In this document: positions 48,575 through 56,604 of the stretch, in pieces
How the letters are laid out: every line of letters begins with the position of its first letter
Position numbering within the stretch: position 1 is the stretch's first letter
NCBI RefSeq assembly: GCF_001463905.1
Contig: NZ_BBWR01000011.1
Location: 124,001 to 188,000, forward strand
Direction: 5' to 3'
DNA: 64,000 nucleotides
Origin: Aureimonas frigidaquae
GTDB lineage: Bacteria; Pseudomonadota; Alphaproteobacteria; Rhizobiales; Rhizobiaceae
Notes under the pieces: model-generated
What the model was told of the DNA's origin: nothing
The model's input: only the letters and a program-made list of their open reading frames with translations
The model's database searches: none
Program-made: the position numbers and the translations under genes

Positions 48575-49273
48575 TCAGCGCGAGCCGGCGGAGGGTAGGC
48601 TGGCCGGCCGCGGGGCGCCGTCGCCGCCGGTCCGCTGAAGGATGCGCAGCCGGGCGCGCAGCGCGCCGCGTATATGGGCACGGGCGAGTTTTTCCGCCTC
48701 GTCCGCCTTGCGCGCGGCAATGGCGTCGATGATCGCCGCATGTTCAAGGGCCGCCTGCTCCGGCCGCTCGCGCACGGAAAAGGTCGTGCTGCCGAGCAGA
48801 CCGATCGCATCCTGGAGCTCTTCGAGCGCAAAGTTCAGGTAGCGGTTGCGGGCCGCCCGGTAGATCGTTTCATGAATATGCCGGTTCAGACGCGCCATCT
48901 CCGGCGTATCGTCGTAGCATTCCTGCAAAGCCTCGTTCAGATCGCGCATATTCTCGATCTCGGTTTCCGACGCATGCTCGGCGGCCAGCCGCGCGGCGGC
49001 GCCCTCGATGATCTCACGCATGGCGTAGAGTTCCATGACGTCGCCGACCTCCAGGCTGCGCACGATCAGGCCGCGCCCGGCGGAGCTTTCGATCAGCCGG
49101 CGCGTCTGCAGGCGGCGGAACGCCTCTCGCACCGGGGTGCGGCTGACGTTCAGCCGCTTGGCGACCTCCTCCTCCCGCAGCCTGTCACCGGCCTTGTATT
49201 CCCCATTGCGCAGCGCTTCGCGGATGGCGTCGTAGACACCCTGCGCCAGCGAATCGCCCCCGTTTCGTTCCAT
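48575..49273 (-). CDS. GntR family regulator, FCD subfamily
   Basis: A 232-residue regulator. The N-terminal winged helix (residues 10-75) reads GDRLREEEVAKRLNVSRTPVREAFRRLQ, and the C-terminal FCD domain holds the metal/acid ligands in the pattern ...D...H (RLNRHIHETIY) ...H (ALEHAAIIDAI)... H (ARAHI). Ligands of FCD members are often organic acids. It is divergent from the TTT transporter operon and is the likely controller of the whole acid-catabolic block. ATG 49273 is chosen over TTG 49291. Confidence 0.92.
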   Translation of the reverse strand: MERNGGDSLAQGVYDAIREALRNGEYKAGDRLREEEVAKRLNVSRTPVREAFRRLQTRRLIESSAGRGLIVRSLEVGDVMELYAMREIIEGAAARLAAEHASETEIENMRDLNEALQECYDDTPEMARLNRHIHETIYRAARNRYLNFALEELQDAIGLLGSTTFSVRERPEQAALEHAAIIDAIAARKADEAEKLARAHIRGALRARLRILQRTGGDGAPRPASLPSAGSR

Positions 49274-49348
49274 CCCGATCCCAGTCCCCAAAGGCTCTCG
49301 CAGACCTCACGTCTGCTTGAGCGATCATGCCGGAAGCACGATGCGACT

Positions 49349-49378
49349 TGCAATCGTACATTTGCGCGTACGTTTGCA
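49349..49378. promoter_or_regulatory. Operator-like inverted repeat between gntR and the TTT operon
   Basis: TGCAATCGTAC, 8 nt, GTACGTTTGCA: arms of 11 bp with a single mismatch. A perfect 10-bp palindrome TTGCATGCAA (49374-49383) overlaps the right arm. Each arm contains TGCA-N3-GTA, the same half-site found upstream of the TcuA-like and dehydrogenase genes. Confidence 0.6.
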
Positions 49379-49469
49379 TGCAATTGAACTCTTTTAAAAA
49401 CAAAGTTAGGGTGCCGGTCGAAAATCCTTGATCGGATGCGTCTGGAACAACCTTGGGAGGAAGCCAGAT

Positions 49470-50567
49470 ATGATCACTCGCCGTGGTTTCATGAATGGCG
49501 TCGCCGCCACCGCCGGCCTGTCGGCCACCGGTCTGCCCTTCGCCGCACGGGCGCAAGCCGGCGTGGACTTTTCGGGGGAGACGATCGAGTTCGTCATCCC
49601 CTTCTCGGAAGGCGGCGGCAGCGATGTCTGGGGCCGTTTCTACGCGCCCTACCTGTCCAAGCATCTGCCCGGCAATCCGAAGGTCATCGTGCGCAATGTG
49701 CCGGGTGGCGGCTCGATGACGGGGGCGAACGAGTTCGCCGTGCGGGCGCGGCCCAACGGGCTGTCGCTCCTCGGCACATCGGGTTCGACGCAGTTCCCCT
49801 ATCTCCTGCAGGACCGCCGCGTGCGCTACGACTACCGCAAGCTCATTCCGGTGGTGGCCTCCCCGACCGGGGGCGTCGTCTATATTCCGGCCAGCTTCAA
49901 CGTGGCCGACGCCTCGCAACTCGGGCAGCTTTCGGGCCGCGAGCTCGTCTATGCGAGTCAGGGCGCGACCTCGCTGGACCTCGTGCCGCTTTTGGCCTTC
50001 GTGGTCATGGGGCTGAATGTGCGCCACGTCTTCGGCATGACGGGCCGGGGCGACGGGCGGCTGGCCTTCGAGCGCGGCGAAGCCACGATCGACTACCAGA
50101 CCACCGCGGCCTACCAGACCGCGGTCGACCCGCTGGTGAAGGCCGGCAACGTCGTGCCGCTCTTTTCCTATGGGGTGATCGACGCCAATGGCCAGGTCCA
50201 GCGCGACCCGACCTTCCCGGACCTGCCGCATTTCATCGAAGCCTACGAGATGATGCACGGTTCCGCGCCGTCGGGGCCGGAATTCGACGCCTACCGCGCT
50301 TTCTTCGGCTCGGGCTTTGCGGCGCAGAAGCCCGCCATGCTGCAGGAAGGCACACCGCCCGAGATCGTCGCAGCCTATCGGCAGGCCTTTGCCGATGCGG
50401 TTGCGGATCCGGACCTGCAGGCCCGCAAGGGCGACATTCTGGGAGAATACGACCAGGCCGTGGGCGAGGATGCCGAGCGCCTGTACCAGATCGCCACGAG
50501 CATCGAGCCCGAGGCGCAATCCTGGACCCAGACCTTCCTGGCCGAAAACTACAACGTGCGCTTCTGA
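49470..50567 (+). CDS. TTT-family (TctC/Bug) solute-binding protein
   Basis: A 365-residue periplasmic receptor for carboxylates. The N-terminus MITRRGFMNGVAATAGLSATG has a twin-arginine motif and hydrophobic core, so Tat export is likely. The mature part starts near FSGETIEFVIPFSEGGGSDVWGR and includes the NVPGGGSMTGANEF loop typical of Bug proteins that contact the ligand. GGGAGG lies 9 nt before the ATG. It heads the operon with the TctA-TctB fusion. Confidence 0.9.
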   Translation: MITRRGFMNGVAATAGLSATGLPFAARAQAGVDFSGETIEFVIPFSEGGGSDVWGRFYAPYLSKHLPGNPKVIVRNVPGGGSMTGANEFAVRARPNGLSLLGTSGSTQFPYLLQDRRVRYDYRKLIPVVASPTGGVVYIPASFNVADASQLGQLSGRELVYASQGATSLDLVPLLAFVVMGLNVRHVFGMTGRGDGRLAFERGEATIDYQTTAAYQTAVDPLVKAGNVVPLFSYGVIDANGQVQRDPTFPDLPHFIEAYEMMHGSAPSGPEFDAYRAFFGSGFAAQKPAMLQEGTPPEIVAAYRQAFADAVADPDLQARKGDILGEYDQAVGEDAERLYQIATSIEPEAQSWTQTFLAENYNVRF

Positions 50568-50611
50568 CGCCGCCCCGCAGCGGGCAAAAACCAACGTGAA
50601 GGGTGGGCAGC

Positions 50612-50633
50612 CGCCGCGACGCGGGTCGCGGCG
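50612..50633 (+). terminator. Hairpin between binding protein and permease genes
   Basis: CGCCGCGAC and GTCGCGGCG form a perfect 9-bp stem with a 4-nt GCGG loop, 45 nt after the binding-protein stop. In transporter operons such stems often protect the upstream message or partially terminate, giving more binding protein than permease. No U-tract. Confidence 0.45.
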
Positions 50634-50693
50634 CGGCACACCCCGCTTGGCCCCGCAGCACATGACGCGCAATGACGAAAGGGCCAGCCGGCC

Positions 50694-52682
50694 ATGATGA
50701 TGGACGCCTTCTGGCAAGCGCTTGCCAATCTCCTGACGCTTCAGCACTTCACCTATCTGTCGCTCGGCGTGCTGGTGGGCCTGGTCGTGGGCGTGCTGCC
50801 CGGGCTCGGCGGCATCGTCGGCATGTCGCTGCTCCTGCCTTTCATCTATGGGATGGACCCGACCTCCGCCATGGCGCTCCTGATCGGCATCCTGCCGGTG
50901 CTGGCGACATCGGACACCTTCGCCTCGGTGCTGATGGGCATTCCGGGCTCCAGCGCCTCGCAGGCGACCATCCTGGACGGCTTCCCTATGTCCAAGAAGG
51001 GCCAGGCGGCCCGCGCCCTGAGCGCGGCCTTCTCGGCATCCTTCATCGGCGGCATCTTCGGGGCCATCGTCCTGTCCGTCTCGGTCATCGCGGCCCGGCC
51101 GCTCATCCTGTCCTTCGGCGCGGCCGAGCTTTTCATGCTGACCATCTTCGGCCTGTCCATGGTCGGGGTCTTGTCGGGCAACAGCCTCGCCAAGGGCATC
51201 GCCGCCTGCGCGGCGGGCCTGGCCATCGGCTCGATCGGCGCCGCGCCCGCAACGGGCGAGTACCGGATGGATTTTGGCGCGCTCTACCTGATGGACGGTT
51301 TGCCGCTGGTCATCGTCGGCCTCGGCATCTTCGCCATTCCGGAGATCGGCGATCTCCTGCGCCAGAAGGGTTCCATCTCCAACACGTCGAGCGCGCTCGG
51401 CACCGGCTGGCTGCAGGGGCTGAAGGACACCTGGACCTATCGCTGGCTGACGCTGCGCTGCTCGGGCCTCGGCTCGATCCTCGGCGCAATTCCGGGCCTT
51501 GGCGGCTCCGTCGTCGACTGGATCGCCTATGGGCACGTGGTCCAGACCTCGAAGGACAAGTCGCAGTTCGGCAAGGGCGACGTGCGCGGCGTCATCGCGC
51601 CCGAATCCACCACCTCGGCCAAGGAGGGCGGCGGCCTCATCCCCACGCTCCTGTTCGGCATTCCCGGCTCCGGCTCCATGGCTATCTTCCTGGCGGGCAT
51701 GGTGCTGATCGGCCTGCAGCCCGGCCCTTCCATGGTGAGCGAGAATCTCGACATCACCTATACGATCGTCTGGTCGCTGGCGCTCGCCAACCTTTTGGGC
51801 ACGGCGCTCTGCATCGTGCTGGCGCCCGGCATCGCCAAGCTTACGCAGATCCGCTACCCGCTGATCGCCCCCTTCATGATCGCCATCGTGGCCTTCGCCG
51901 CCTTCCAGCCGACACGTGCCTTCGACGATCTCCTGGCCCTGCTCGTGGTCGGCGTCTTCGGCATTCTCCTGCGCCGTTTCGGCTGGCCCCGGCCGGCCTT
52001 CCTGATCGGCTTCGTCCTGGCCACGCAGAGCGAGCGCTACCTCTACCAGGCGGTGCAGTTCTCCGGCTTCGAGATATTCACCCGGCCGATCGTCCTGGTG
52101 ATCGCCGCCATCATCGCGCTGTCGGTGTGGCTCGGCGCCCGCTCGACCAAGAGCGGCGGCTCCTTCAACACGGAGGCGACGGGATCGGAATCCGCGGACC
52201 GGCCGACGCAGTTCGGCCCGCAGATCGCCTTCTCGCTCCTCATCCTCGGCATCTTCCTCTTCGCCGCCTATGAAAGCTGGAAGCTGTCCTTCCTGGGCGG
52301 GGTGTTCACGGCGGGTGTCGCGGCCGTCGGCCTTGCCGCCACGGCCTTCGTGCTGGTCCCGCAGCTTGGCCGCAAGGTCGGCGCGAACGCCAATTACGAC
52401 GCGGAGGCCAATCGCGATGCCGACGACAATGTCAGCCCCTATGCCTATATCGGCTGGCTCGCCGGCTTCGTGGCCTCCATCGCCGTGATCGGCTTCTTCG
52501 CCGCGCTCCTCCTCTTCTTCATGACCTTCCTGCGGGTCGTCGCCAAGGCGTCGTGGCTGACGAGCCTTCTCCTGACGGCCGGCATCGCCACGGTCATGCT
52601 GACCCTGGCCAGTTCGCTCAACCTCGTCTTCCCGGCCGGCTACCTGCAGCTCTGGTTCGACCTTCCCTGGCCGTTCCGTTGA
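50694..52682 (+). CDS. Tripartite tricarboxylate transporter permease, TctA-TctB fusion
   Basis: A 662-residue membrane protein. Residues 1-510 are TctA (about 12 helices) with PGLGGIVGMSLLLP and IPGSSASQATILDGFPM near the N-terminus, and a repeat-like second copy with IPGLGGSVVDWIAYG and FGIPGSGSMAIFLAG. From about residue 515 (FGPQIAFSLLILGIF) a further four-helix segment looks like the small subunit TctB, joined through a polar linker. No separate TctB gene is nearby. ATG 50694 is the first of three consecutive Met codons. Confidence 0.88.
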   Translation: MMMDAFWQALANLLTLQHFTYLSLGVLVGLVVGVLPGLGGIVGMSLLLPFIYGMDPTSAMALLIGILPVLATSDTFASVLMGIPGSSASQATILDGFPMSKKGQAARALSAAFSASFIGGIFGAIVLSVSVIAARPLILSFGAAELFMLTIFGLSMVGVLSGNSLAKGIAACAAGLAIGSIGAAPATGEYRMDFGALYLMDGLPLVIVGLGIFAIPEIGDLLRQKGSISNTSSALGTGWLQGLKDTWTYRWLTLRCSGLGSILGAIPGLGGSVVDWIAYGHVVQTSKDKSQFGKGDVRGVIAPESTTSAKEGGGLIPTLLFGIPGSGSMAIFLAGMVLIGLQPGPSMVSENLDITYTIVWSLALANLLGTALCIVLAPGIAKLTQIRYPLIAPFMIAIVAFAAFQPTRAFDDLLALLVVGVFGILLRRFGWPRPAFLIGFVLATQSERYLYQAVQFSGFEIFTRPIVLVIAAIIALSVWLGARSTKSGGSFNTEATGSESADRPTQFGPQIAFSLLILGIFLFAAYESWKLSFLGGVFTAGVAAVGLAATAFVLVPQLGRKVGANANYDAEANRDADDNVSPYAYIGWLAGFVASIAVIGFFAALLLFFMTFLRVVAKASWLTSLLLTAGIATVMLTLASSLNLVFPAGYLQLWFDLPWPFR

Positions 52683-52710
52683 GCCTCGCAGAACGAAAGG
52701 ACATAGAACC

Positions 52711-53805
52711 ATGAGTTCCGCACACGCGATCCCCTGCATCCTGATGCGCGGCGGCACATCGAAAGGACCCTACTTCCGCTCGCATGATCTGCCGGCCGAC
52801 CCGGACCAGCGCGACCGCGTGCTGCTGGCGCTGATGGGCTCCCCCGACAGCCGCCAGATCGACGGGATCGGCGGCGCGGACACGCTGACCAGCAAGGTGG
52901 CGATCGTCGGGCCATCGGAGCGTCCGGGTGTCGACGTGGACTATCTCTTCGCGCAGGTTTCCGTGGACCAGCCCATCGTCGATACGGCGCCGTCCTGCGG
53001 CAACATGCTGTCGGGCGTCGGCCCCTTCGCGATCGAAACAGGCATGGTGCCGCCGGCGGGCGACGAGACGCGTGTGGTGATCTTCAACGTCAACACCGGA
53101 AGCCGCATCGAGGCCATTGTCCAGACGCCGGACGGCACGGTTCGCTATGACGGCGCGGTCGCCATTGACGGGGTGCCGGGCACGGCGGCCGAGATCCGGT
53201 TGAACTTCCTCGACATCGTCGGCTCCAAGACCGGCGCGCTCCTGCCGACGGGGAAGACGCGGGAAACCATCGACGGCGTGGAGGCGACGCTGATCGACGT
53301 GTCCGTCCCGATGATGATCCTGCGGTCGCAAGATCTCGGCAAGACCGGTTACGAGACCCCGGCGGAGCTGGATGCCGATACCGCCTTCTTCGCCCGCCTG
53401 GATGCGCTGCGCCTGGAGGCCGGCCGCCGCATGGGCCTGGGGGATGTGTCCGGCATGGTCGTGCCCAAGGTCGCCATGCTGGCCGCGCCGCAGGGCGATG
53501 CGGCGATCGCTGCCCGCTACTTCGTTCCGCACAAGACCCACGCCGCCATGGCGGTGACCGGCGGCCTCTGCATCGCTAGCGCCTGTGCGCTGGAAGGCAC
53601 GGTGGCCGAGGGTCTTGCCCGGCTGCCGGCAAATCCCAAGGACCAGATCGTGGTCGAACATCCGAGCGGGATCTTCGAGATCGCCCTATCGACGACCGGC
53701 GAGGGCGCATCGACCAGCGTATCCGGCGGTGTGGTCCGCACCGCACGCAAGCTCATGTCCGGCCACGTCCATGTACCGGCGGCGCTCTTTGCGCAGGCGA
53801 GCTGA
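52711..53805 (+). CDS. PrpF family isomerase (4-oxalomesaconate tautomerase / aconitate isomerase type)
   Basis: A 364-residue protein with the DAP-epimerase-like double fold. Hallmarks: IPCILMRGGTSKGPYF, DTAPSCGNMLSGVGPFAIE with a catalytic cysteine, and GSKTGALLPTGKTRETIDGVEATLIDVSVP. Family members isomerise double bonds in tricarboxylates: methylaconitate (PrpF), 4-oxalomesaconate (GalD) or trans-aconitate. It starts 28 nt after the permease gene, so it acts on the imported acid. Which of these reactions is catalysed cannot be read from the sequence. Confidence 0.88.
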   Translation: MSSAHAIPCILMRGGTSKGPYFRSHDLPADPDQRDRVLLALMGSPDSRQIDGIGGADTLTSKVAIVGPSERPGVDVDYLFAQVSVDQPIVDTAPSCGNMLSGVGPFAIETGMVPPAGDETRVVIFNVNTGSRIEAIVQTPDGTVRYDGAVAIDGVPGTAAEIRLNFLDIVGSKTGALLPTGKTRETIDGVEATLIDVSVPMMILRSQDLGKTGYETPAELDADTAFFARLDALRLEAGRRMGLGDVSGMVVPKVAMLAAPQGDAAIAARYFVPHKTHAAMAVTGGLCIASACALEGTVAEGLARLPANPKDQIVVEHPSGIFEIALSTTGEGASTSVSGGVVRTARKLMSGHVHVPAALFAQAS

Positions 53806-53830
53806 CGCAGCTTTTGCGGCAACGGCGAAG

Positions 53831-53855
53831 GGCGGCGCGCGCGTGACGCGCCGCC
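53831..53855. terminator. Bidirectional hairpin between convergent catabolic genes
   Basis: GGCGGCGCG and CGCGCCGCC pair perfectly over 9 bp with a 7-nt loop, between the stop codons of the PrpF-like and dehydrogenase genes. Confidence 0.55.
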
Positions 53856-53867
53856 TGGGCCGCAGCC

Positions 53868-54929
53868 TTAGCCGAGCGCGGCGATCACAGCCTTCGTAAA
53901 GTCCCGGGTCGAGGCGGTTCCGCCAAGATCGCGGGTCCGGTGACGTTCATCCGTCAGCGTGCCGAGCACCCTGCGCTTCAGCTCGCAAGCGGCCTCGCAG
54001 AAGCGTTGGGTCCCGTGCCGTTCCCCGATCCAGTCCAGCATCATGCCGGCCGACAGGATGAGGGCCGTCGGGTTGGCAATGTCGCGGCCCGCTATATCGG
54101 GCGCCGAGCCGTGCGAGGCCTGGGCCATGGCATGGCCGGCGCCCGCGTTGAGGCTTTCGGCAAGGCCGAGCCCGCCCGACAGTTCGGCGGCGAGGTTCGA
54201 CAGGATATCGCCGAACATATTGGTCGAGACGATCACGTCGAAGCGCTCGGGGGAACGCACCAGATGCGACACCATCGCATCGATATGCTCATCGTCCACC
54301 CGGATGTCGGGATAGGCCGCGGCGGCCTTGCGACACTCTTCCAGGAACAGGCCGTCCGAGAGTTTGAGGACGTTGCCCTTGTGTACGATGGTCACCGCGC
54401 CCCGCCGCCGGCGGGCTTCTTCGAAGGCTGCCTGCGCGATCCGCCGCGAGCCTTCGCGCGTGACCTTGCGGACCGCCAGGGCAAGGTCCGGCGTCGGCAT
54501 GAATTCGCCGCCGCCGGCAAACATGGTCCTGTCCGCATAGAAGCCTTCGGTGTTTTCCCGCACGATCATCACGTCGAGCGGAGCCACCTTGGCCGGCAGC
54601 CCGGATCGCACATAGCTTGGCCGCAGATTGGCGAAGAGATCGAGGGCGATCCGCAGCGCGGCCGACGGATTGATGCCGCCCGCTTCCCGCGCGGGATACT
54701 CGGCCGTGGAGACCGGGCCGAGCAGGATGCCGTCCGCCGCGCGCGCTGCATCCAGGAGTTCTGGCGGAACCGTGGTTCCTACAGCTTCCAGCGCCGCAAA
54801 CCCCACATCCCGGCTCTCGAATTCAAGGGACAGGTCGTGCCGCCGGTCCAGCGCCTCCAGCACCGCACGGGTGGCCTCTGTGATTTCGGGGCCGATGCCG
54901 TCGCCGGCAAGGGTCAGGATATGCACCAT
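53868..54929 (-). CDS. Isocitrate/isopropylmalate-type dehydrogenase
   Basis: A 353-residue NAD(P)-dependent beta-hydroxyacid oxidative decarboxylase. Seen are VHILTLAGDGIGPEI, the substrate loop LRPSYVRSGLPAKVAPLDVMIVRENTEGFYADR, the lysine of IVHKGNVLK, NMFGDILSNLAAELSGGLGLAES and HGSAPDIAGRDIANPTA. The RENTEGFYAD pattern resembles tartrate/homoisocitrate-type members more than LeuB. ATG 54929 is chosen; the frame open to 55025 crosses the operator region. Convergent with the PrpF-like gene and divergent from the TcuA-like gene. Confidence 0.85.
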   Translation of the reverse strand: MVHILTLAGDGIGPEITEATRAVLEALDRRHDLSLEFESRDVGFAALEAVGTTVPPELLDAARAADGILLGPVSTAEYPAREAGGINPSAALRIALDLFANLRPSYVRSGLPAKVAPLDVMIVRENTEGFYADRTMFAGGGEFMPTPDLALAVRKVTREGSRRIAQAAFEEARRRRGAVTIVHKGNVLKLSDGLFLEECRKAAAAYPDIRVDDEHIDAMVSHLVRSPERFDVIVSTNMFGDILSNLAAELSGGLGLAESLNAGAGHAMAQASHGSAPDIAGRDIANPTALILSAGMMLDWIGERHGTQRFCEAACELKRRVLGTLTDERHRTRDLGGTASTRDFTKAVIAALG

Positions 54930-54950
54930 TGATTCACTCCCACGTCTGAA

Positions 54951-54967
54951 TGCATCTGTATACAATA
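54951..54967. promoter_or_regulatory. GntR-type operator, copy A
   Basis: TGCATCTGTATACAATA, 22 nt upstream of the dehydrogenase ATG. It contains the palindrome TGTATACA (54957-54964) and the TGCA-N3-GTA half-site. Its reverse complement matches copy B at 15 of 17 positions. Confidence 0.65.
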
Positions 54968-55033
54968 GAACCGCGCGGGATGATGCAATGGTCCAGCTCG
55001 CCTGTCCGGGCACCCTCTTTTCCAAACCGAATT

Positions 55034-55050
55034 TATTGTATACAAGTGCA
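55034..55050. promoter_or_regulatory. GntR-type operator, copy B
   Basis: TATTGTATACAAGTGCA, 28 nt upstream of the TcuA-like ATG, with TGTATACA at 55037-55044. It is an inverted copy of copy A; the two centres are 80 bp apart. Confidence 0.65.
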
Positions 55051-55077
55051 TGCTAAATCGATCTGTGGAGGAATGTC

Positions 55078-56604
55078 ATGTCGGAATACAGGGATGTCGT
55101 CGTCGTCGGTTCCGGGTCTGCGGCCTTGTGCGCGGCGCTGGCCGCGTTGGAAAAGGGTGTCTCGGTCATCGTCCTGGAAAAGGCCGGAGAGGATCTGGCC
55201 GGTGGCAATTCCAAATATACGGCCGGCGCCATGCGGTTCGCCTATGACGGCAATGCCGACCTTCTGCCGCTCCTGAAGAACCCGGACGATCCGCGGCTCG
55301 AAGTCACCGAGTTCGGCGCCTACCGTGCCGAGACCTTCGAAGCCGATCTCCTGGGCTTCAACGATGGGCGGCCGCTGACCGTCGAGCAGAAGGCCCTGGT
55401 GTCGCAAAGCTATGCCACCATGCGCTGGCTGGCCGACAATGACGTGACCTTCGAGCCCATCTACTCCCGCCAGTCCTTCCAGAAGGATGGCAAGCACGTC
55501 TTCTGGGGCGGGTTGACCCTTGCCGCCGAGGACGAGGGCGTCGGGCTCGTGGCGGCGCAAACCCGCGCCGTCCTGTCGAAGGGTGGCCAGATCCGCTACG
55601 ATTGCGAAGTGGTGGAACTGATCGTCGAGGGCGAGCGCGTGGTCGGCGTGCGCACGCGCGATGCGGCGGGAAAGCCGGGCGAGATCCGCGCCGGCGCCGT
55701 GGTCCTCGGCTGCGGTGGCTTCGAGGCCAATGCCGCCCTGCGCGAGCGCTTCATCGGGGCGGATTGGAGCAAGGCCAAGGTCCGCGGCACGCCCAACAAT
55801 ACCGGGCGTGGGCTGGAAATGGCCTTCGCGCTCGGCGCGCGCCAGCACGGGCTTTATGAAGGGTGCCATGCCACGCCGATGGACCTTCACATGCCCGAAT
55901 ATGGCAACCTCGACATCCCGCATGAGGAGCGCAAGAACTACCGCAAGATCTGCTACTTCCTGGGCGTGATGGTGAACCGCGACGGCATGCGCTTCGTCGA
56001 CGAGGGCAAGGATTTCCGCAACTACACCTATGCGCAGTTCGGCCGCGCGGTGCTGGAGCAGCCCGGCCACTTCGCCTGGCAGATCTTCGATTCCAAGGTG
56101 GACCACCTCCTCTATGCCGAATACCGCTTCCACGACGCCCATTTCGTCGAAGCCGAGACACTCGATGCCCTGATCGAGAAGCTGGACGGCATCGACGACA
56201 AGGACCGCGTGCGGGCCACGCTCGATGCCTATAACGCGGCCGTCGACGATGACGTCGCCTTCGACCCGACCGTCAAGGACGGCAAGGGGACCCATGGCCT
56301 GCCGCTGCCCAAATCCAACTGGGCTCAGAAGATCGATACCGGGCCTTTCAAGGCCTATCCCGTGACGGGCGGCATCACCTTCACCTATGGCGGGCTCGAG
56401 GTCAGCGCCGCGGGCGGCGTCGTGCGTGAGGATGGCGGCGACATACCGGGCCTCTTCGCCTGTGGCGAACTCGTCGGCGGCGTCTTCTTCAACGGCTATC
56501 CGGGCGGCTCGGGCCTGACCTCCGGCGCCGTGTTCGGCCGCCGGGCCGGCTATGGCGCGGCTGCCGTGGCGCAGGATCGCTCCCTCGCCGCCCAGACGGC
56601 GTAG
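55078..56604 (+). CDS. tcuA: FAD-dependent oxidoreductase, TcuA (tricarballylate dehydrogenase)-like
   Basis: A 508-residue flavoprotein of the fumarate reductase/succinate dehydrogenase group. The FAD motif VVVVGSGSAALCAALAALEKG with E-x-A lies at residues 7-38, GGNSKYTAGAMR follows, and the C-terminal domain ends in GLFACGELVGGVFFNGYPGGSGLTSGAVFGRRAG. TcuA oxidises tricarballylate to cis-aconitate. The family partner TcuB, which reoxidises the flavin, is not encoded nearby. GGAGG precedes the ATG. Other acids could be the true substrate. Confidence 0.82.
   Translation: MSEYRDVVVVGSGSAALCAALAALEKGVSVIVLEKAGEDLAGGNSKYTAGAMRFAYDGNADLLPLLKNPDDPRLEVTEFGAYRAETFEADLLGFNDGRPLTVEQKALVSQSYATMRWLADNDVTFEPIYSRQSFQKDGKHVFWGGLTLAAEDEGVGLVAAQTRAVLSKGGQIRYDCEVVELIVEGERVVGVRTRDAAGKPGEIRAGAVVLGCGGFEANAALRERFIGADWSKAKVRGTPNNTGRGLEMAFALGARQHGLYEGCHATPMDLHMPEYGNLDIPHEERKNYRKICYFLGVMVNRDGMRFVDEGKDFRNYTYAQFGRAVLEQPGHFAWQIFDSKVDHLLYAEYRFHDAHFVEAETLDALIEKLDGIDDKDRVRATLDAYNAAVDDDVAFDPTVKDGKGTHGLPLPKSNWAQKIDTGPFKAYPVTGGITFTYGGLEVSAAGGVVREDGGDIPGLFACGELVGGVFFNGYPGGSGLTSGAVFGRRAGYGAAAVAQDRSLAAQTA

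Follow-up and report, generated by a model that had tools for sequence, protein, structure and literature searches.

A predicted TcuB-free variant of transporter-linked tricarboxylate catabolism in Aureimonas frigidaquae

Which acid would a bacterium take up and oxidise with a tripartite tricarboxylate transporter (TTT), a PrpF-superfamily tautomerase, an isocitrate/isopropylmalate-family dehydrogenase (Iso_dh) and a TcuA-like flavoprotein, and how does such a set differ from the known tricarballylate (Tcu) system? The question is raised by positions 48,575 to 56,604 of a 64,000-nucleotide stretch of the Aureimonas frigidaquae genome (contig NZ_BBWR01000011.1, positions 124,001 to 188,000; hereafter the window). 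The original prediction, made from the sequence, named six clustered genes, and all six open reading frames are present, with families backed by Pfam and NCBIfam profile scores. Its view of the locus as a tricarboxylate-type uptake-and-oxidation module with a GntR/FCD regulator is supported by these families and by recurrence in other genomes; among the open-licence papers listed on TTT, PrpF, TcuA, tricarballylate, 4-oxalomesaconate tautomerase and aconitate, we found no title or abstract that describes the module. From the genes present we predict that the cluster is a TcuB-free variant of TTT-linked tricarboxylate catabolism, with a tricarballylate- or aconitate-like acid as the likeliest substrate. 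Its real departure from tcu arrangements is a flavoprotein of another clade, without TcuB.

A TcuA-like flavoprotein without TcuB

The original prediction had placed the departure elsewhere, in a TTT instead of a major facilitator superfamily (MFS) transporter and in an added isomerase. This part does not hold as stated. We compared the best 80 of at least 547 confirmed stretches encoding relatives of the fused permease TctAB; as they were chosen by TctAB, these permease loci show what accompanies the permease and not gene frequency elsewhere. Short TcuA occurs in 37 of the 80 and TcuB in 36, all of them loci with short TcuA (L062 has short TcuA and no TcuB), and 35 of these 36 also hold a PrpF-superfamily gene; therefore TTT uptake with TcuAB is common among loci with this permease. 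As an example, the plasmids of Paracoccus alcaliphilus (NZ_CP067127), Thalassospira marina (NZ_CP024200) and Pacificitalea manganoxidans (NZ_CP021407), in which TcuA and TcuB are annotated, share with the window TctC, fused TctAB, a tautomerase gene, Iso_dh and a GntR regulator; unlike the window they have short TcuA with TcuB, and several add a two-component system, an AbrB-type protein and a D-2-hydroxyacid dehydrogenase. Compared with TcuABC of Salmonella, the window has TctC and TctAB instead of the carrier TcuC, a GntR/FCD regulator, an added tautomerase and Iso_dh, no TcuB in the genome, and a flavin adenine dinucleotide (FAD) flavoprotein that shares a broad family (NF006130) with TcuA but belongs to another clade and scores under the TIGR02485 cut-off.

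The flavoprotein gene (positions 55078-56604, + strand) matches Pfam FAD_binding_2 with 123 bits. Its product passes the NF006130 model for TcuA (557.6 bits, cut-off 369), as do the two other long forms tested (569.1 and 559.1), and fails the TIGR02485 model for TcuA (228.6 bits, cut-off 372.55), on which three short TcuA proteins score 569-608; the earlier name 'TcuA-like' holds for the broad family, and the clade is not that of short TcuA. Two long relatives share 69% and 72% identity with it; five short TcuA proteins share 35-37%. In a tree of 69 sequences all 34 short forms split from the rest at 100/100, and the window flavoprotein falls within a seven-member clade, again at 100/100. Matches of 400 residues or fewer, and those interrupted by a stop, were excluded from this tree, which holds 33 of the 39 short TcuA genes from the permease loci and 26 of the 29 M loci offered; L152 was flagged as a long branch and may join falsely.

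The absence of TcuB, also stated in the original prediction, is confirmed for the whole host genome, where TIGR02484 has no match at E <= 0.001 (7 candidates scored; 99.99% completeness). In a sample of the class, with the three best candidates per genome scored, the flavoprotein has a match in 76 of 385 genomes. Among the 75 besides the host, 66 have some TIGR02484 match, which stays below the cut-off in 58; each of the 8 with TcuB above it has one TcuB gene no more than 30 bp from a 36-39%-identical TcuA, and one (G188:C9) of the nine TcuB genes above the cut-off is without a listed TcuA beside it. A TcuA-like gene of any form occurs in 43 of the 80 permease loci, short in 37 of them; the six with a long-like flavoprotein, which the tree sorts into four of the long type and two of another subgroup, all lack TcuB. 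The short and long types never share a locus, a weak signal given that this has a chance of 0.02 for six loci and 0.08 for the tree-corrected four. Paracoccus liaowanqingii carries the long form, and its only matches to TcuB are two stretches of 61 and 105 residues; these lie beside a GntR gene of its plasmid cluster (L037, 15833-16328), with the long flavoprotein gene at the opposite end.

Four residues, His264, Tyr318, Arg323 and Tyr474 (window numbering), are kept in both long and short kinds, and it is therefore plausible that the window flavoprotein performs a dehydrogenation related to that of TcuA with a different electron acceptor. The Arg of GANRLGG in flavocytochrome c fumarate reductases, which has a catalytic role, is Tyr in both kinds.

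The accompanying genes and their recurrence

The order of the genes is gntR (-), tctC-tctAB-tautomerase (+), isoDH (-), tcuA (+), that is, three catabolic units and a regulator; the three strand changes among the six genes rule out a single operon. The tctC gene (49470-50567, +, ATG start at 49470) encodes a TctC/Bug-type solute-binding protein that scores 26.9 bits against Pfam TctC (cut-off 27) and matches Bug/TctC structures in the PDB; its N terminus, MITRRGFM...ARAQA, we take to be a twin-arginine translocation (Tat) signal. The permease gene tctAB (50694-52682, +) gives 396 bits for Pfam TctA (cut-off 28.9), its C-terminal part covers residues 3-137 of the 137-residue TctB model at 23.8 bits (cut-off 29.1), and no solved structure matches the fused protein at E <= 0.001. 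Fused TctAB is described as rare in the accessible text of a review (PMC5812351).

The tautomerase gene (52711-53805, +) had been called a PrpF-type isomerase. The superfamily stands (Pfam PrpF, 384.3 bits), but the model for PrpF 2-methylaconitate isomerase, TIGR02334, is failed (211.6 bits, cut-off 440.55) and the 4-oxalomesaconate tautomerase model NF033377 is passed (511.6 bits, cut-off 440). The nearest solved structure is E. coli YbhH (390 bits) and the second GalD; Lys62 and Cys96 are kept and align with residues changed in the GalD structure entries u108165 and u108167. According to the portion of PMC9068703 available, ybhH lies with ybhI, which encodes a putative tricarboxylate carrier homologous to 2-oxoglutarate/malate translocators, unlike the TTT of the window; the regulator there is the LysR protein YbhD, use of L-malate is suggested, and that portion mentions neither a flavoprotein nor an Iso_dh. 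PrpF-superfamily proteins also include the aconitate isomerases TarA and TbrA (PMC11495376, as excerpted), and PrpF is described in an excerpt of PMC5690661 as interconverting cis- and trans-aconitate. The trans-aconitate genes tarRAB resemble the window, by the description in the excerpt, in encoding such an isomerase with an importer and a regulator; they differ in that the importer, TarB, is a membrane protein and not a TTT, and the excerpt describes no flavoprotein or dehydrogenase.

The isoDH gene (53868-54926, -; Pfam Iso_dh 303.5 bits) is matched by 16 NCBIfam models of isocitrate, homoisocitrate, isopropylmalate and tartrate kinds, none above its own cut-off. The nearest are homoisocitrate (292 bits), isopropylmalate/homoisocitrate (291) and isocitrate (280), while the score on the tartrate dehydrogenase model is 230 bits (cut-off 470); the nearest structures are likewise homoisocitrate, isopropylmalate/homoisocitrate and NAD-isocitrate dehydrogenases. 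Among 23 homologues GG(I/V/L)NxS is found in 22 and RENTEGFYADR in only 12, the rest having variants such as REATEGMYPDR or no motif match, so that the group is mixed in its motifs. In the window and in L040, L082, L087, L089 and L090, Asn replaces the final Asp of GDILSD, a metal ligand in this family; besides the window, the homologues with this variant are all from Thalassospira and Telmatospirillum loci.

The genes travel together in other genomes. Across the 80 permease loci TctC is found in 77, a tautomerase/PrpF gene in 71, a response regulator in 45, a histidine kinase in 44, an AbrB-type membrane protein in 32, a D-2-hydroxyacid dehydrogenase in 28 and Iso_dh in 21; if only the 54 loci flanked on each side by over 8 kb are counted, the numbers are, respectively, 54, 48, 29, 29, 22, 18 and 13, with short TcuA in 25 and TcuB in 24. 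All 21 Iso_dh loci have a tautomerase gene and 17 a TcuA-like gene. The six gene types of the window, including its type of flavoprotein, co-occur in L057, L074, L037, L214 and L215, carried by Rhizobium albus, Devosia elaeis, a Paracoccus liaowanqingii plasmid (L037, NZ_CP040765) and two further genomes; L214, L215 and the R. albus contig carry the same genus label. Identities of these five sets to the window are 70-73% for TctC, 58-68% for the permease, 68-72% for the tautomerase, 52-55% for Iso_dh, 69-79% for the flavoprotein and 44-51% for GntR. The original prediction had named a lack of conserved clustering in relatives as grounds for its refutation, and the clustering seen in other genomes removes those grounds. 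A second sample of 15 loci (L209-L223), found by the flavoprotein alone in order and family draws, has flavoproteins 66-78% identical to that of the window. Several of these loci come from one genus, and two, L209 and L213, duplicate the contigs of L074 and L057; apart from these duplicates they were typed long by identity and not by tree. In the stretches examined around the gene TctAB occurs in 9 of the 15, a tautomerase gene in 10, Iso_dh in 4 and TcuB in none. The six-gene set is conserved and probably forms one regulon.

Some neighbours recur beyond this set. In 14 of the 15 loci the long flavoprotein has a D-2-hydroxyacid dehydrogenase gene nearby, including L210 and L222, which are without TTT in the stretch examined; such a gene also occurs in 4 of the 16 loci whose flavoproteins are less similar. 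A second PrpF-family gene adjoins a CoA-transferase family III gene in L057, L074, L039 and L062, hinting at a coenzyme A (CoA)-thioester branch. The cluster stretch examined on the plasmid of Shinella sp. HZN7 shows no TcuA. Among recurrent neighbours without an assigned family, three groups are each spread over 10-12 of the 80 loci; the 22 listed after them are found in 2-3.

Nearer home the cluster is rare. Its TctAB is found in 0 of 20 same-genus genomes (E <= 1e-120), and in the two nearest by gyrB (G005 and G012, 91%) the gyrB-side stretch is without the cluster and holds PBP and biotin carboxylase homologues; a lineage-specific gain is therefore likely. The stretches of six other relatives, two of them under 6 kb, give no matches save one weak GntR match. 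A composition shift as a mark of recent gain is not seen (G+C content 66.4% in the cluster, 67.0% in the window). In two same-genus genomes (G009 and G018; loci L216 and L025) a long flavoprotein has as neighbours a GntR with 60% identity and a TctC-like protein of another kind, window-type TctAB not being in the stretch examined; L025 has a transposase-like gene near the flavoprotein. The host genome itself (4.10 Mb, 30 contigs) carries 11 TctA, 5 Iso_dh and 2 PrpF-family genes. One region (G000:C2:112000-142000, L021 and L022) holds an Iso_dh paralogue 53% identical to that of the window, TctA genes, an Ldh_2 homologue, and the second PrpF-family gene, which adjoins a LysR gene and another TctA.

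Palindromic sites and the GntR/FCD regulator

The regulator gene (48575-49291, -; TTG start, with an in-frame ATG 18 bases inward) has GntR and FCD domains above the Pfam cut-offs (66 and 91.4 bits). With up to two mismatches the pattern TTGTATACAA occurs 6 times in the window, where 1.86 are expected and the maximum in 100 shuffles is 5, and three of the six sites fall in the gntR-tctC and isoDH-tcuA gaps. These three are the perfect palindrome TTGCATGCAA (49374-49383, gntR-tctC gap), two changes from TTGTATACAA and a possible operator; CTGTATACAA (54956-54965), 30 bases ahead of the isoDH start and a possible GntR/FCD operator; and TTGTATACAA itself (55036-55045), ahead of tcuA in the isoDH-tcuA gap and a probable one.

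A survey of 140 sources counted sites with at most one mismatch within 250 bp upstream (background 0.0072 per 265 bp); near relatives within the upstream sets inflate these counts. Of the long-type flavoprotein genes 12 of 22 are preceded by a site, or 10 of 20 once two duplicate contigs are removed; the count is 14 of 45 for short TcuA, 15 of 47 for GntR2, 4 of 22 for window-like GntR, 10 of 26 for LysR and 2 of 52 for D-2-hydroxyacid dehydrogenase genes. For less similar flavoproteins the number is 3 of 21 (L164, L166 and L168), exactly those loci of 49-52%-identical relatives that have a window-like GntR. Ranked among 1024 palindromes, TTGTATACAA comes clearly first upstream of long-type flavoproteins (10 of 20, the next having 5 of 20), all ten sites lying 22-61 bp before the aligned start. 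For TctC it leads by a narrow margin (10 of 99, the next having 9); for short TcuA a G+C-rich palindrome is ahead of it (16 of 45, TTGTATACAA having 14) and it comes second; and for the less similar flavoproteins it is not better than several other palindromes. Its presence in the isoDH-tcuA gap and its top rank upstream of close flavoprotein relatives suggest a single GntR/FCD regulon over the units, and we infer that the GntR/FCD protein binds TTGTATACAA-type sites.

Proposed function and competing explanations

We give about even credence to the cluster being a catabolic regulon that is induced by its substrate, a tricarboxylic acid of the tricarballylate/aconitate class. The acid would enter through TctC and fused TctAB, and the flavoprotein would take two hydrogens from between carboxylated carbons, as Salmonella TcuA reportedly does in converting tricarballylate to cis-aconitate; the electrons would go to a different acceptor than TcuB. 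The PrpF-superfamily enzyme would shift or isomerise the C=C bond to give a form hydrated by the host aconitase, and Iso_dh would convert the isocitrate-like product to a 2-oxoacid by oxidative decarboxylation. The GntR/FCD protein, responding to the substrate, would govern the units via TTGTATACAA-type sites.

Several results weigh against this proposal. The flavoprotein falls short of TIGR02485, and we found no assay of its clade or of this Iso_dh type among the open-licence papers listed. In the stretches examined 37 of the 80 permease loci have no TcuA-like gene, some contigs ending early, and therefore permease and tautomerase may often serve without the flavoprotein step; in 59 of the 80 Iso_dh was not found. 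Ten of the 20 long-type flavoprotein genes have no such site upstream, and it is present for only 11 of 101 TctC, 1 of 91 tautomerase and 1 of 52 IsoDH genes, the last being the window's own, so that the link of isoDH to the regulon depends on one shared gap. Finally, the reference D-2-hydroxyacid dehydrogenase has no match in the window, and the proposed route has no role for this enzyme.

The same kind of module might serve another polycarboxylate, a branched or hydroxylated acid such as an isocitrate stereoisomer or a homoisocitrate- or citramalate-like compound, and this we hold as a tentative possibility, below an even chance but not far-fetched. The 2-hydroxyacid dehydrogenases of related clusters would then invert hydroxyl stereocentres, as in the two-dehydrogenase racemase said to operate in the use of sulfolactate. 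The frequency of D-2-hydroxyacid dehydrogenase genes in both samples (28/80 and 14/15), the Ldh_2, RraA-like, CoA-transferase III and second PrpF genes of several clusters, and the top models of Iso_dh all fit it. TTT systems are also described as taking up varied acids, sulfolactate among them (PMC5812351, accessible text). Yet in 36 of the 80 permease loci this TTT is accompanied by short TcuA and TcuB, the known tricarballylate pair, and reference Ldh_2, like the D-2-hydroxyacid dehydrogenase, is without a match in the window. It is distinctly improbable that the genes came together by chance, importer and tautomerase forming one unit and Iso_dh and flavoprotein another with unrelated substrates. 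The two pairs do have separate transcription units, the site is found among IsoDH genes at the window's alone, and 16 inspected loci of 49-52%-identical flavoproteins (two on short contigs; L165 has another TctC kind) are without such TctAB, tautomerase, Iso_dh or TcuB; but the window-type flavoprotein occurs with both TctAB and tautomerase in 9 of the 15 loci found by flavoprotein alone, two less similar flavoproteins (L079 and L111) also adjoin these genes, and the palindromic site is common to flavoprotein and regulator or transporter genes. A side branch of gallate/protocatechuate 4,5-cleavage, with the tautomerase acting on 4-oxalomesaconate and the remaining genes incidental, would account for the passed NF033377 cut-off and for GalD as second-best PDB relative. 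We reject it as the leading explanation on the best host match to the LigK/PcmE aldolase model, which is far under the cut-off (106.9 against 304.5 bits); no ring-cleavage enzyme or hydratase is among the eight proteins scanned, the top PDB match is YbhH with its neighbouring putative tricarboxylate transporter gene, and we regard this branch as very improbable.

Within the proposed catabolism of a tricarballylate- or aconitate-like acid, a bolder version is prompted by a review that, in its accessible text, reports inhibition of isocitrate dehydrogenase by accumulated tricarballylate (PMC8593673). The distinct flavoprotein clade would replace the TcuA-TcuB pair in the same setting of TTT, tautomerase and GntR sites, giving a second, TcuB-independent desaturation of tricarballylate-type acids with another acceptor, and Iso_dh would be a tricarballylate-tolerant isocitrate dehydrogenase. 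We think this unlikely; if true, the tolerant Iso_dh would permit growth on an acid despite its reported inhibition of the housekeeping enzyme.

For annotation, the NF006130 label 'FAD-dependent tricarballylate dehydrogenase TcuA' spans, in the treed sample, two deeply split groups, and since only one of them is tied to TcuB, the label is unsafe for the other. The comparison also delineates a proteobacterial TTT-tautomerase-flavoprotein module that recurs and has a predicted operator; through it an orphan transporter type and an orphan dehydrogenase gain a testable substrate class.

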